The position numbers were made by a program, and so were the translations under genes. Of a stretch of DNA of 64,000 nucleotides, positions 38,558 to 42,877 are shown piece by piece. Source of the DNA: an uncultured Flavobacteriales bacterium (GTDB lineage Bacteria > Bacteroidota > Bacteroidia > Flavobacteriales_D > Crocinitomicaceae). The first letter of the stretch is position 1; every line of letters begins with the position of its first letter. The stretch spans positions 1-64,000 of the forward strand of contig CAJAII010000020.1 in the NCBI GenBank assembly GCA_903939755.1, read 5' to 3'. The notes beneath the pieces are model-generated. The model did no database searches, was not told where the DNA came from, and worked only from the letters and a program-made list of their open reading frames with translations.

Positions 38558-39220
38558 ATGCGAGCATTTGAACTTATTACGGATGAAATTCCACCCCTAA
38601 TTCACACTGATTCAGGCGAAAAAGCCATTAATTGGATGGACGAATTCAAAGTGTCGCAATTGGCGGTGTTAAAAAATGGTGTGTTTGTCGGTGTTGTCTC
38701 TGAATCAGCTATCTTAGACCGTTTGGTTTTATCGGATTCTTTAGATGTTTTGTTTGATCATTTACCGAGGCCTTACGTAAACGAAAATGCGCACATATAC
38801 GATGTGCTTGCTATGATGTCTGAACATAAACTGAGCATTATTCCTGTTTTAGATGATAAAGAAAATTACCTTGGTTGTACCAGTATTTTTCATTTGATGA
38901 CTACGCTTGCGAATATTGGAAGCATTAAAGAACCGGGTAGTATTTTAGTGCTTGAGCTAAATGCTATTGATTATTCGATGGCGCAAATTGCTCAAATTGT
39001 TGAAAGCAATAATGCCAAAATTTTAAGCTCTTATATTCTTTCCGATGTTACTTCATCATTATTAGAAGTGACGCTGAAAATCAATGAAATAAATTTAACA
39101 AGAATCATCCTTACTTTTGAGCGTTATGATTATAAAATAAAAGCGTCATATCAAGCTGGTGTTGACGATGAGGATGTTCGATGGAAATACGATGCATTAA
39201 TGAATTTTATGAAATTTTGA
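38558..39220 (+). CDS. CBS domain pair protein
   Basis: A 220-aa cytoplasmic protein with two CBS motifs (about residues 10-125: HTDSGEKAINWMDEFKVSQLAVLKNGVFVGVV and PRPYVNENAHIYDVLAMMSEHKLSIIPVLDDKENYLG). An ACT-like C-terminal half follows (LVLELNAIDYSMAQIAQIVESNNAKILSSYI), which suggests ligand-controlled regulation. ATG at 38558 is preferred over an in-frame TTG four codons earlier. It lies 2 nt before the NAD kinase gene, so the two are co-transcribed. The ligand may be an adenine nucleotide, but that is inferred from the CBS family. Confidence 0.82.
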   Translation: MRAFELITDEIPPLIHTDSGEKAINWMDEFKVSQLAVLKNGVFVGVVSESAILDRLVLSDSLDVLFDHLPRPYVNENAHIYDVLAMMSEHKLSIIPVLDDKENYLGCTSIFHLMTTLANIGSIKEPGSILVLELNAIDYSMAQIAQIVESNNAKILSSYILSDVTSSLLEVTLKINEINLTRIILTFERYDYKIKASYQAGVDDEDVRWKYDALMNFMKF

Positions 39221-39222
39221 GC

Positions 39223-40101
39223 ATGAAAGTCGCCATCTTTGGTAAAAAAATAAATAAAAATATTTCAGAATACTTTCTCAAAGTATTATCTGTTGTCGAT
39301 AATTTAGGTTGGACGGCTGTTTTAGAAGCGGATTTAAATGCCACCTTAATTGCGAAGTGTGGTATTCGTGAATCCTACGAAACATTTAATTCATCGAGTG
39401 ATATACGTTCAGGTATCGATTTGTTCATTAGCCTTGGTGGGGACGGTACATTTTTAAAGTCGGTACAGTTCATTCGTGATTCTGGGGTTCCGATTTTAGG
39501 AATCAACACAGGTAGGTTAGGTTTCTTGTCAAATATTTCCAAAGAAGATATAGAAGCTAGTTTGGTGAATATTGATTTAAAAAAATATGATTTCCAACTG
39601 CGATCTTTGTTGCGGGTGCATACGGCTGATAATATCTTTGGAACGGACAATTTTGCCTTAAATGAGCTTACCCTTCAAAAGCGCGATACCTCTTCAATGA
39701 TAACGGTTCACGCAAGTTTAGATGATAAGTATTTGAATAGTTATTGGGCAGATGGATTAATCGTTTCAACGCCAACAGGTTCTACCGCCTATAACCTTAG
39801 TTGTGGTGGACCAATTATTACGCCTGGTTGTCAAGTTCATATATTAACACCAATTGCGGCACACAATTTGAATGTGCGGCCGGTTGTTGTACCGGATCAT
39901 TTGCCAATTAAGTTAAGTATTGAAGGTAGAGACCGAAGTTATTTGATCAGTTTGGATGGAAATTCAAAAAGTGTGAAGCTAGGGGAAGAAATCATCGTTG
40001 AAAAGGCGGAATTTATGATAAATGTAATTAAATTTGAACACAATAATTTTTTGGATACTATTCGAAACAAGATGTTTTGGGGGGTTGACAAAAGAAATTA
40101 A
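39223..40101 (+). CDS. nadK: NAD kinase
   Basis: Phosphorylates NAD+ to NADP+ using ATP or polyphosphate. Family motifs: GGDGTFLKSV (about 67-76), GINTGRLGFLS (about 91-101), NELTLQKRDTSSM, and the glycine-rich TPTGSTAYNLSCGGPI that closes the active site. From ATG at 39223 (MKVAIFGKK) the protein is 292 aa, the normal length. An upstream ATG at 39181 would overlap the CBS gene by 40 nt and is not chosen. It forms an operon with the CBS protein gene and is followed at 11 nt by an FKBP gene. Confidence 0.94.
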   Translation: MKVAIFGKKINKNISEYFLKVLSVVDNLGWTAVLEADLNATLIAKCGIRESYETFNSSSDIRSGIDLFISLGGDGTFLKSVQFIRDSGVPILGINTGRLGFLSNISKEDIEASLVNIDLKKYDFQLRSLLRVHTADNIFGTDNFALNELTLQKRDTSSMITVHASLDDKYLNSYWADGLIVSTPTGSTAYNLSCGGPIITPGCQVHILTPIAAHNLNVRPVVVPDHLPIKLSIEGRDRSYLISLDGNSKSVKLGEEIIVEKAEFMINVIKFEHNNFLDTIRNKMFWGVDKRN

Positions 40102-40112
40102 AACAATCTATT

Positions 40113-40832
40113 ATGAAAAAAACATGTATTATTATTAGTTTAATGAGCTTTTCAGGAATGATGTATGCTCAAAAAAAACCAACAACTGTTGAAAAGACTC
40201 CCGTAATTAAGAATAGAATTGATTCGGTTTCTTACCTTGTAGGAACAAGTATCGCTGGAAATCTTATGACAGAAATGAGCGAAGGAAATATCGATTTAAT
40301 TCTTCAAGGAATTAAAGATGGCTGGGAGAAAAAGACTCTTGCTATTGCAGATCAAAGTAATATGTGTGTTAATAATTATTTTCAAGAAAAAAACGCAGCA
40401 AAACAAGCAATCGAAGATAAGATGAATGAAAAATATAAAATTCTCGGAGAGAATTTCTTGAAAGATAATGTGCGTAACCTTGGTGTTGTTGTTACTGAAT
40501 CTGGTTTACAGTATAAAATTCTTGGTGAAACAGATGGCCCGAAGCCAAGCGCTACGTCTAAAGTGAAGGTTCATTATCACGGAACAACTATAGAAGGAAA
40601 AGTTTTTGATAGTTCTGTTGATCGAGGTGAGCCTATCGAGTTTCCTTTAAATCAAGTAATTCCTGGATGGACAGAAGGTCTACAACTGATGTCAGTTGGT
40701 TCAAAGTTTAAGTTTTTTATCCCACAGAACTTAGCTTACGGAGCACAATCGCCATCGCCAGATATAGCTCCATATTCAACGCTTATTTTTGAAGTTGAAT
40801 TATTAAGTTTCGAAGACGCTCCAAAAAATTAA
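40113..40832 (+). CDS. FKBP-type peptidyl-prolyl isomerase, exported
   Basis: A 239-aa periplasmic folding helper. Signal peptide [20 protein letters not shown]. An N-terminal helical dimerisation segment (about 30-125), as in FkpA/Mip, leads to a C-terminal FKBP domain (about 126-238): [40 protein letters not shown] and [12 protein letters not shown]...[12 protein letters not shown]. The key aromatic and acidic residues of the FKBP pocket (Tyr, Phe, Asp, Trp, Tyr) are present. Two nucleotides after its stop lies the dual cyclophilin-FKBP gene, so both folding enzymes come from one transcript. Confidence 0.92.
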
Positions 40833-40834
40833 TA

Positions 40835-41971
40835 ATGAAAAATACAATCTTCTTCTGTATCCTTTTTGTTTCAGCTCAATTTGCGTCAGCGCAAAAGTTG
40901 GAAAAAGGAATGTATGCGCAATTCAATACCTCTAAAGGGGTGATTATTTGCGCGCTAGAGTTTGAAAAAACACCCATGACCGTTGCTAATTTTGTTGGCT
41001 TAGCGGAAGGGAAGTTTGAGCACGCGGATAAAAAATTTGATAAGCCATTTTATAATGGATTAAAATTTCATCGTGTTATCAAAGATTTCATGATACAAGG
41101 TGGAGATCCACTTGGAACAGGAAGTGGCGATCCAGGCTATAAGTTTTACGACGAAATAGTGGTTGAATTAAAACACGATGGCCCAGGCATTTTATCCATG
41201 GCGAATTCTGGTCCCAATACAAATGGAAGTCAGTTCTTTATCACCCATAAGGAAACTCCTTGGTTAAACGGAAAACACACTGTTTTTGGTCATGTTGTTC
41301 AAGGTCAAAATGTGGTTGATTTAATTGCGCAAAACGACACGATTATTAGTCTTCAAATTCTTCGAATTGGAAAAGCGGCCAAGAAATTTAATGCAAATAA
41401 GGTGTTTGGGGTAAAATTTGCTGCGGCGAAAGCAGCTGATGAAGCCTTGAATGCTGAAAAAAAACGCTTGGATGCACTTGCCGCCATTGAGTATGAGAAG
41501 ATTGAAGCTATGGGAAAAGACGGCTATACAAAGTATATGTATGAACAAGTTTTACTTAAATACCCAAATGCCAAATTAAGTGCATCGGGGTTAGTGTATG
41601 ATATCGAAAATTATGGGGAAGGAGACAAGCCTGTTCTTGGTTCAAAAATGGGACTTCACTATAAAGGAACTATTCGAGCGGACGGTAAAAAGTTTGATTC
41701 TTCCTATGATCGAAATTCCCCATTGGAATTCAATTACTTAGTTCAAAAAATGATTCCAGGGTTCGAAGAAGGAATTGGTATGTTAGGAAAAGGAGGGAAG
41801 GCAACTTTAATTATTCCTTATTTTCAAGCCTATGGTAAAGACGGTCGGCCTGGAGCGATTCCTCCGTATTCAGATTTGGTATTTGAAATAGAAATATTGC
41901 AAGTCGATCCTGCGAATTCTTTGCCTGATCCAGACCATATTCACACAGAAGGCGACGGTCATAAGCATTAA
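40835..41971 (+). CDS. Cyclophilin-FKBP fusion (dual-family peptidyl-prolyl isomerase)
   Basis: A 378-aa exported protein. The signal [20 protein letters not shown] is followed by a cyclophilin domain (about 25-180). It carries [15 protein letters not shown] with the catalytic Arg, [25 protein letters not shown], and a linker of about 75 residues. A complete FKBP domain is at about 255-362 ([49 protein letters not shown].....[13 protein letters not shown]). The tail [14 protein letters not shown] is His-rich and could bind metal. Fusions of the two unrelated isomerase families have been described in some protists and flavobacteria. It is probably periplasmic, in an operon with the FKBP gene. 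Confidence 0.92.
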
Positions 41972-41985
41972 ATACAGCTTTATTC

Positions 41986-42636
41986 TTAATTGGTATAGGC
42001 GTACATAATAATATTCGCGCCCATTTGCAAGGCCTGAAGATGTTTTTCAGCCGAGTCGTTGTGAACCTGTGGATCTTCCCAACCATCACTTAAATCTGTT
42101 TCGAAAGTATACAAACAAAGTAAACGACCATCTTTGATTAAACCAAATGCTTGCGGACGTTTCCCATCGTGCTCATGAATTTTTGGAAGCCCATTAAAGG
42201 TGTACTTTTGCTTGAAAATGGGATGGTTAAAAGGTAATTCTACTAAATCTAATTCTGGAAATACTTTTTTCAATTCTACACGAATGAATTCATCCATTCC
42301 ATAATTATCGTCGATGTGTAAAAAGCCTCCCGCTAATAAATATTGCCTTAAATTAGTTGCTTCTCCTCTTGAAAAAACTACATTTCCATGCCCTGTCATA
42401 TGAATAAATGGATATAGAAAAATGTCTTTACTTCCCACTTCTACATAAGGTGTTTCTTTACTTATAGAAGTACCTAAATTTTGATTACAAAATGTAATTA
42501 AATTAGGAAGGGCAGTTGGATTCGCATAATAATCGCCACCTCCATTGTATTTTAATACCGCCAATTGATATGTCCCTTGACTAAATGCTATGGAGCTTAT
42601 GAGTAACATGAAGCCAATGAATAGTATTTTTCGCAT
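41986..42636 (-). CDS. DUF4159 domain-containing exported protein
   Basis: A 216-aa protein with a signal peptide (MRKILFIGFMLLISSIAFS). The mature part is one DUF4159 domain: LKYNGGGDYYANPTALPNLITFCNQN, YPFIHMTGHGNVVFSRGEATNLRQYLLAGGFLHIDDNYGMDE, then ELPFNHPIFKQKYTFNGLPKIHEHDGK and a GLIKDGRLLCLYTFETDLSDGWED end. DUF4159 resembles a glutamine-amidotransferase-like fold and often stands near MoxR/DUF58 systems, which here is 9 kb away. Its function is not known. Convergent with the immunophilin gene. Confidence 0.87.
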   Translation of the reverse strand: MRKILFIGFMLLISSIAFSQGTYQLAVLKYNGGGDYYANPTALPNLITFCNQNLGTSISKETPYVEVGSKDIFLYPFIHMTGHGNVVFSRGEATNLRQYLLAGGFLHIDDNYGMDEFIRVELKKVFPELDLVELPFNHPIFKQKYTFNGLPKIHEHDGKRPQAFGLIKDGRLLCLYTFETDLSDGWEDPQVHNDSAEKHLQALQMGANIIMYAYTN

Positions 42637-42820: not shown

Positions 42821-42877
42821 GTGCCTCTCGACTCCGCTCGATGCCCTTTAAGTGAATCGAGCGGAGTCGAGAGACAC
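42821..42877. repeat. Near-perfect 22-bp palindromic repeat
   Basis: Bases 42821-42842 are the reverse complement of 42856-42877 with one mismatch, around a 13-nt loop. The core CTCTCGACTCCGCTCGAT recurs in variant form at 47.9-48.1, 50.9-51.0 and 51.9-52.1 kb. The rest of the 452-bp gap (42637-43088) between the DUF4159 and zinc-ribbon genes holds no supported gene; frames through the hairpin translate repeat sequence. Confidence 0.85.

Follow-up and report, generated by a model that had tools for sequence, protein, structure and literature searches.

What kind of foldase carries a cyclophilin and an FKBP on one exported chain and ends in a His-rich tail, and what do its linker and its tail contribute? 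The question is raised by a gene of an uncultured member of the Crocinitomicaceae (host genome assembly 99.8% complete, 2.9 Mb), found in a stretch of 64,000 nucleotides that is called the window below. The gene and its surroundings are laid out as follows.

39181..40101, + strand: NAD kinase (PRK01911 equivalog above cut-off, match from residue 15)
40113..40832, + strand: partner FKBP (FKBP_N + FKBP_C), 239 aa (Pfam)
40835..41971, + strand: CFBP-type dual-family immunophilin, ORF with ATG start, 378 aa (Pfam domains, relatives)
40835..40891, + strand: Sec-type signal peptide, about residues 1-19, with cleavage placed by eye between ASA and Q
40916..41338, + strand: cyclophilin domain, residues 28-168 (Pfam, alignment counts, fold match)
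41393..41560, + strand: linker, residues 187-242, predicted as one continuous helix (AlphaFold2)
41627..41899, + strand: FKBP domain, residues 265-355 (Pfam, alignments to FKBP12 and FkpA, counts)
41909..41968, + strand: His-rich tail of low model confidence, read as disordered (composition counts, AlphaFold2)
41986..42636, - strand: DUF4159 gene, facing the CFBP gene from downstream (Pfam)

Beyond these genes, at 42821-42877, lies a palindrome with two 28-nt arms 1 nt apart that are 89% complementary. Its core, TCTCGACTCCGCTCGA, has 15 genome matches per strand, which often form inverted pairs; the reversed control has 0. The palindrome is a member of an interspersed palindromic repeat family.

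The CFBP chain and its relatives

Pfam places Pro_isomerase on residues 28-168 (150.1 bits, cut-off 21.7) and FKBP_C on residues 265-355 (84.9 bits, cut-off 21.1). Inspection by eye and a simple hydrophobicity rule both point to a Sec signal peptide at the N-terminus, where residues 1-20 have a pLDDT of about 65 in the AlphaFold2 model. These findings bear out the initial annotation, which had seen both isomerase folds on one exported chain, and the His-rich tail that it had placed at the C-terminus is present in the 378-aa translation. The protein is almost certainly an exported CFBP, with a predicted periplasmic location.

CFBPs are defined by two isomerase-active modules that are inhibited by cyclosporin A and FK506. 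The window protein has in common with the CFBPs described by Adams, Barik and colleagues from Flavobacterium and spirochaetes the order cyclophilin-linker-FKBP, the signature peptides and the lack of TPR; it differs from them in its His-rich tail, its signal peptide and its predicted helical linker. The signature peptides, given in the accessible part of PMC5852385 as FHR, MAN, W and H for the cyclophilin and HY and FDSS for the FKBP, stand at residues 78-80, 122-124, 143, 148, 275-276 and 287-290. The Toxoplasma-type FCBP (FKBP-3TPR-cyclophilin) likewise carries both folds on one chain, but its domain order is reversed and its linker is made of TPRs. In the window protein the linker measures about 56 aa by domain bounds, within the CFBP range of 38-76 aa, and gives no TPR match in Pfam.

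Compared with FkpA and other periplasmic FKBPs of the FKBP_N type, the protein lacks FKBP_N and has a cyclophilin in its place. When the FKBP half is used as the query of a PDB sequence search, two wheat entries come first and FkpA third. The Foldseek pairing of the model with FkpA spans 157 columns including gaps (rmsd 5.5); against PRK10902, which we take to be the FkpA model, the chain scores 105.7 of 215 bits, below the cut-off. Among the 50 VIA-align matches listed, all are cyclophilin matches that lie within model residues 22-189, and the stalk and the FKBP are barely touched. Identity with GldI, suggested by wording in the accessible text of PMC6316441, was rejected because the host genome encodes a separate GldI-like protein (L007, scoring 104 under a cut-off of 157.6).

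A careful alignment, named beforehand in the initial annotation as the place where the dual-isomerase reading might fail, finds the checked site residues kept in both domains, apart from Phe for W59 and Met for V55 in the FKBP. For the cyclophilin, against what we take to be the site list and numbering of cyclophilin A (H54, R55, F60, M61, Q63, A101, N102, Q111, F113, W121, L122, H126), the 82-fusion alignment has 12/12 positions standard in the window protein, W121 included; the residues concerned are FHR 78-80, F85, M86, Q88, A123, N124, Q133, F135, W143, L144 and H148. The FKBP half, with site residues Y276, F287, D288, F299, M306, I307, F310, Y333 and F350, is standard in the same alignment at Y26, F36, D37, F46, I56, Y82 and F99 by what we presume to be the FKBP12 list and numbering. 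M306 stands at V55, where the 82 fusions have V in 49, L in 17, M in 15 and A in 1, and F310 stands at W59 (W in 49, F in 30). The register of this half was confirmed against FKBP12 chains, one of which, from the PDB, itself has F at W59. Both active sites are thus largely intact by alignment, and the heads look catalytically competent, which suggests isomerase activity in each.

The same two-domain architecture is met again in many genomes, with identity ranging from 94% to as low as 38% in the 82-fusion alignment, and is therefore no chance fusion. The initial annotation was right to name protists and flavobacteria as carriers of such fusions and went astray in calling them rare: this named type, published as CFBP, is common in the host family, where 207 of 217 sampled genomes have a match at E <= 1e-60, a threshold that also admits strong cyclophilin-only matches (as in families f2 and f5), so that some of the 207 may not be fusions. 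In the order as a whole, 217 of 399 sampled genomes have a match at that level. Fusion frames were found, among the matches listed, in Flavobacteriaceae, Chitinophagales, Spirochaetaceae, Desulfobulbaceae, Verrucomicrobiota and Fibrobacteres (the last cut at a contig end), a broader range than the taxon list for CFBP in the accessible part of PMC6316441.

Several counts below come from a survey of 147 frames, one per genome, of which 146 belong to the host family and one (L033) to another. It covers 146 of the 207 matching family genomes and 67 of 71 in the host genus; genomes without a listed match place, including all of g17, g23, g24, g28, g30 and g32-g36, were left out, as were L133 (incomplete at a contig end) and the second fusion-like match of genome G012. 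L131 and L176, being one gene, were counted once. The wider comparison used the best 80 of 588 matches, from which L041, L042, L043 and L115 were assigned to the host family; the remaining loci could still include family members, and L102, L118, L119 and L120 hold no fusion frame. Of 84 fusion frames, alignment A2 contains 81 (L071, L088 and L108 left out) and alignment A3 contains 58, together with the window protein.

A signal peptide is called by the simple rule in 145 of the 147 surveyed fusions, and the remaining two are truncated at a contig end or lack an ATG in the stretch. Outside the recognised host family the same rule finds one in 51/80 frames and none in 29/80 (best 80 of 588 matches), and many of these 29 begin directly at the cyclophilin. 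CFBPs hence seem, from their N-termini, to comprise a cytoplasmic and an exported kind, and the signal-less flavobacterial proteins are a possible cytoplasmic paralogue class. The ‘translational co-folding’ model, as given in the accessible text of PMC6316441, does not separate the two.

Other variants were met along the way. At L045, L047, L053, L057, L070 and other loci, the flavobacterial CFBP frame measures about 311-322 aa, begins at the cyclophilin and has no signal peptide. Three g18 genomes have a CYN-CYN-FKBP form, and L182 (2394-4451, + strand) holds a single 686-aa frame with CYN-FKBP-CYN-FKBP in tandem. L186, L187 and L188, all of the host genus, carry about 140 additional residues on the N-terminal side of the cyclophilin, identified by Pfam as DUF1573 in L186, the sole one scanned. 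At L034 a CYN is joined to a partner-type FKBP and ends in a His tail.

The linker

AlphaFold models the window protein from the 82-row alignment with a mean pLDDT of 93.7 and a pTM of 0.83, and draws the linker as one 56-residue helix (187-242) with 10-residue pLDDT means of 95-98. A distant, spirochaete member, the CFBP of a Treponema MAG, is given a 33-residue helix (211-243) with pLDDT of 91-98. AlphaFold can over-predict isolated helices, and the way it orients the domains towards each other is provisional. The linkers of the 84- and 136-fusion sets are poor in Pro (1.0 and 0.4%) and Gly (3.1 and 1.2%) and rich in Ala, Glu and Lys, with Ala at 15-18%.

These predictions bear on the plain CFBP of the literature, that is two chaperone modules joined by a flexible, disordered linker, with a metal-free tail that would act in solubility, as a spacer or as a passenger. 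Disorder has been predicted for 277 CFBP linkers (PMC5852385, accessible part), and fragments matching cleavage in the linker are reported in the accessible text of PMC6316441. The high-confidence continuous helices in two distant members speak against it, and the Ala/Glu/Lys-rich composition with little Pro or Gly fits a helix as well as disorder. Although the helix contradicts the printed model, it sets prediction against predictions. A stiff helical stalk is in our judgement the likely form of the linker, and the plain CFBP an unlikely account of the whole protein. A predicted helix where the literature has a disordered linker is new here.

Derivation of the stalk from the FKBP_N domain of the partner was considered and rejected. 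FKBP_N matches 2 of 22 members in Pfam, at best with E 0.098, and profile comparison of the stalk with the partner FKBP_N detects no homology, the match starting only at the FKBP domain. L186 scores 21.2 against FKBP_N, just below the cut-off of 22, and the stalk as such has weak Pfam matches at best.

The His-rich tail

Of the 146 host-family fusions surveyed, 115 have three or more His beyond the FKBP domain, with a slight bias towards tail carriers since the search query included the tail. These 115 are distributed over the genera as follows.

Host genus: tail with at least three His in 67/67
g21: 21/21
g26: 17/17
g15: 4/5
g16: 3/3
g31: 3/3
g18, g19, g20, g22, g25, g27 and g29 together: 0/30

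No such tail was seen in 80 frames from 72 loci not recognised as host family (best 80 of 588 matches), nor in 38 frames from 28 such loci in a phylum-wide search. The 115 tails are 8-29 residues long and comprise 106 distinct sequences, and the median chain has 5 His; His makes up 27.7% of their residues against 2.0% in the remainder of the same proteins, and 113 of them have a final HxH. The window protein and the five relatives nearest to it (81-94% identity) have an identical 11-residue tail segment despite synonymous codon changes. The tail is fast-changing and is kept in composition (His/Asp/Gly) rather than in sequence, and this conserved composition across host-family CFBPs is new here. 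The mean pLDDT values of 64 and 52 suggest that it is probably disordered. Simple repeat DNA was ruled out as its source because the His residues are encoded by CAT and CAC alike (324 and 288 codons). A genome-wide DNA pattern for proteins ending in HxH gave 281 matches against 225 for the reversed control and is uninformative.

As 31 of the 146 family fusions lack the tail, whose presence changes at least six times on the 146-row tree (L034 left out), it would be dispensable in some lineages. This absence fits the plain CFBP with its metal-free tail, which has to explain how a neutral tail could keep 28% His and a final HxH across 106 sequences, something it would hardly do. The composition argues that the tail probably binds a divalent metal, a reading that had been voiced in the initial annotation and now has more in its favour. 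A Pfam scan of seven window proteins found no metal gene among them, and the open-licence literature searched yielded no metal role for such CFBP tails. His-rich extensions have been in print, without a metal reading in the accessible part of PMC5852385, for the second CFBP of Aquimarina agarivorans and for a supposed CFBP of the nematode Ancylostoma. The Ancylostoma ending quoted there shares the 15 residues DDHHGHDHSDPNHKH with the host-family locus L213, so the nematode record is, to judge from that ending, probably bacterial contamination.

The nearest parallel is SlyD, which in E. coli binds nickel through its His-rich tail domain (PMC11198818, accessible part). The host genome encodes a SlyD-like FKBP of its own:

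L010:1216-1719, - strand: SlyD-like FKBP with His-rich tail, next to a spermidine synthase-like ORF (by eye)

It has 168 aa, ends in EHGHVHGEHGHQH and matches PRK10737, presumably the SlyD model, over its full length at 102.7, under the cut-off of 174. Such a protein was found in 15 of 25 host-genus genomes, always (15/15) ending in HGHxHG..GHxH, and among seven SlyD-like proteins from outside the genus three have a similar tail and four have none. An FKBP domain followed by a His-rich tail is what the window CFBP has in common with SlyD; it differs in its additional cyclophilin, in being exported and in lacking the IF chaperone insert, as FKBP_C is matched from 4 to 94 of 94 over 91 residues. 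Without this insert it is not a SlyD, and the two tails look analogous, not homologous. A tail borrowed from SlyD was rejected, since tails from the same genome (14 genomes) are alike by eye in composition and not in sequence. SlyD-style nickel delivery was also set aside as unlikely because neither NiFe hydrogenase nor urease was found in the host genome (controls matched in 5 and 4 of 14). At its C-terminal end the CFBP may work like SlyD.

Metal on the tail could be buffered, or could make the foldase responsive to it. The tail might thus be a mere store or scavenger, a zinc or copper buffer carried by a foldase whose folding activity is unaffected. Variable length and order with conserved composition fit a buffer, as does the position on a low-confidence, probably disordered end, and in L034 the tail also follows a different type of FKBP; set against this, a median of five His per chain makes for a small capacity. 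We regard this as unlikely. That metal regulates folding appears doubtful.

The partner FKBP and the function of the pair

Co-transcription with a plain FKBP, proposed in the initial annotation, fits the arrangement of the locus. The ATG of the CFBP gene lies only 2 bases past the stop of the partner gene, which itself begins 11 bases after the NAD kinase gene on the same strand, and in the host genus the partner is directly upstream in 64 of 66 loci with enough sequence. The NAD kinase is upstream in 33 of 36 and the DUF4159 gene present in 52 of 64 such loci. Outside the host genus the partner adjoins the CFBP in only 1 of 79 family loci, so that pairing by gene order is a trait of the genus.

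Six genomes of the related genus g29 encode a CFBP that runs on into a third domain, with frames of 500-511 aa:

L177 2497-4023, + strand: triple fusion cyclophilin-FKBP-FKBP, genus g29; likewise L131 and L178-L181

This third domain is 60-65% identical to the FKBP domain of the partner, against 35-39% to the CFBP's own, and a separate adjacent partner was found in 0 of 9 g29 loci. On a 67-row tree made with one in four of the CFBPs and one in four of the partner genes, the CFBPs' own FKBPs split off at support 100 and the third domains fall on the partner side, in a tree of few columns in which long branches meet. By the Rosetta-stone argument the fusion, which is also new here, suggests that the partner and the CFBP act together. 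The partner-type domain in g29, a sister genus, occupies the place that the tail has elsewhere; on the decidedly unlikely reading of a metal-responsive machine, taken up below, either of the two might serve to grip the same partner.

A further possibility is that the pair serves assembly by the BAM complex, with the partner as a BamJ-type subunit and the CFBP as a soluble arm that loads clients. The partner passes the NCBIfam BamJ model NF053689 (105.7 bits, cut-off 100), and a subunit of PPI fold, BamM, occurs in the F. johnsoniae BAM complex (PMC12611786, accessible part). The BamJ score of the partner is marginal and limited to profile positions 40-184, and two further models give this protein more bits without reaching their own cut-offs (164.7 of 198, 136.6 of 215). 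The partner has a signal peptide without a lipobox cysteine (by eye), and cyclophilin and FKBP are not mentioned in the accessible main text of PMC12611786. The triple-fusion protein of L041 also passes the model (139.5 over two stretches), which means that it may not be specific here. We consider a BAM role improbable.

The reading that we prefer, at a probability of roughly 60%, is an exported CFBP foldase with two isomerase heads, a stiff stalk, a partner FKBP and a disordered metal-binding tail. The cyclophilin and the FKBP would be the two prolyl isomerase heads of a periplasmic foldase, held apart by a helical stalk instead of a floppy linker. The protein would probably be made together with its FkpA-like partner, and both would act on exported and outer-membrane proteins as putative clients. 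In the periplasm the disordered tail would bind a divalent metal (Zn, Cu or Ni), as the SlyD tail does in the cytoplasm. A stronger version, in which Zn or Cu on the tail alters isomerase activity or partner docking and the stalk fixes the spacing of the heads, is decidedly unlikely.

The window CFBP belongs to a known family, and its tail and its predicted stalk are the new features. The role of this family in vivo is largely unknown, according to the accessible text of PMC6316441. The locus offers three handles on it: a tail suggestive of metal binding, the gene of the partner and a stalk at odds with the disorder described in print. Should the metal role be true, the protein would be a periplasmic parallel to SlyD built from other domains, and if the metal-responsive machine is true, its stalk of fixed spacing would oppose the flexible linker that has been published for the CFBP family as a whole.
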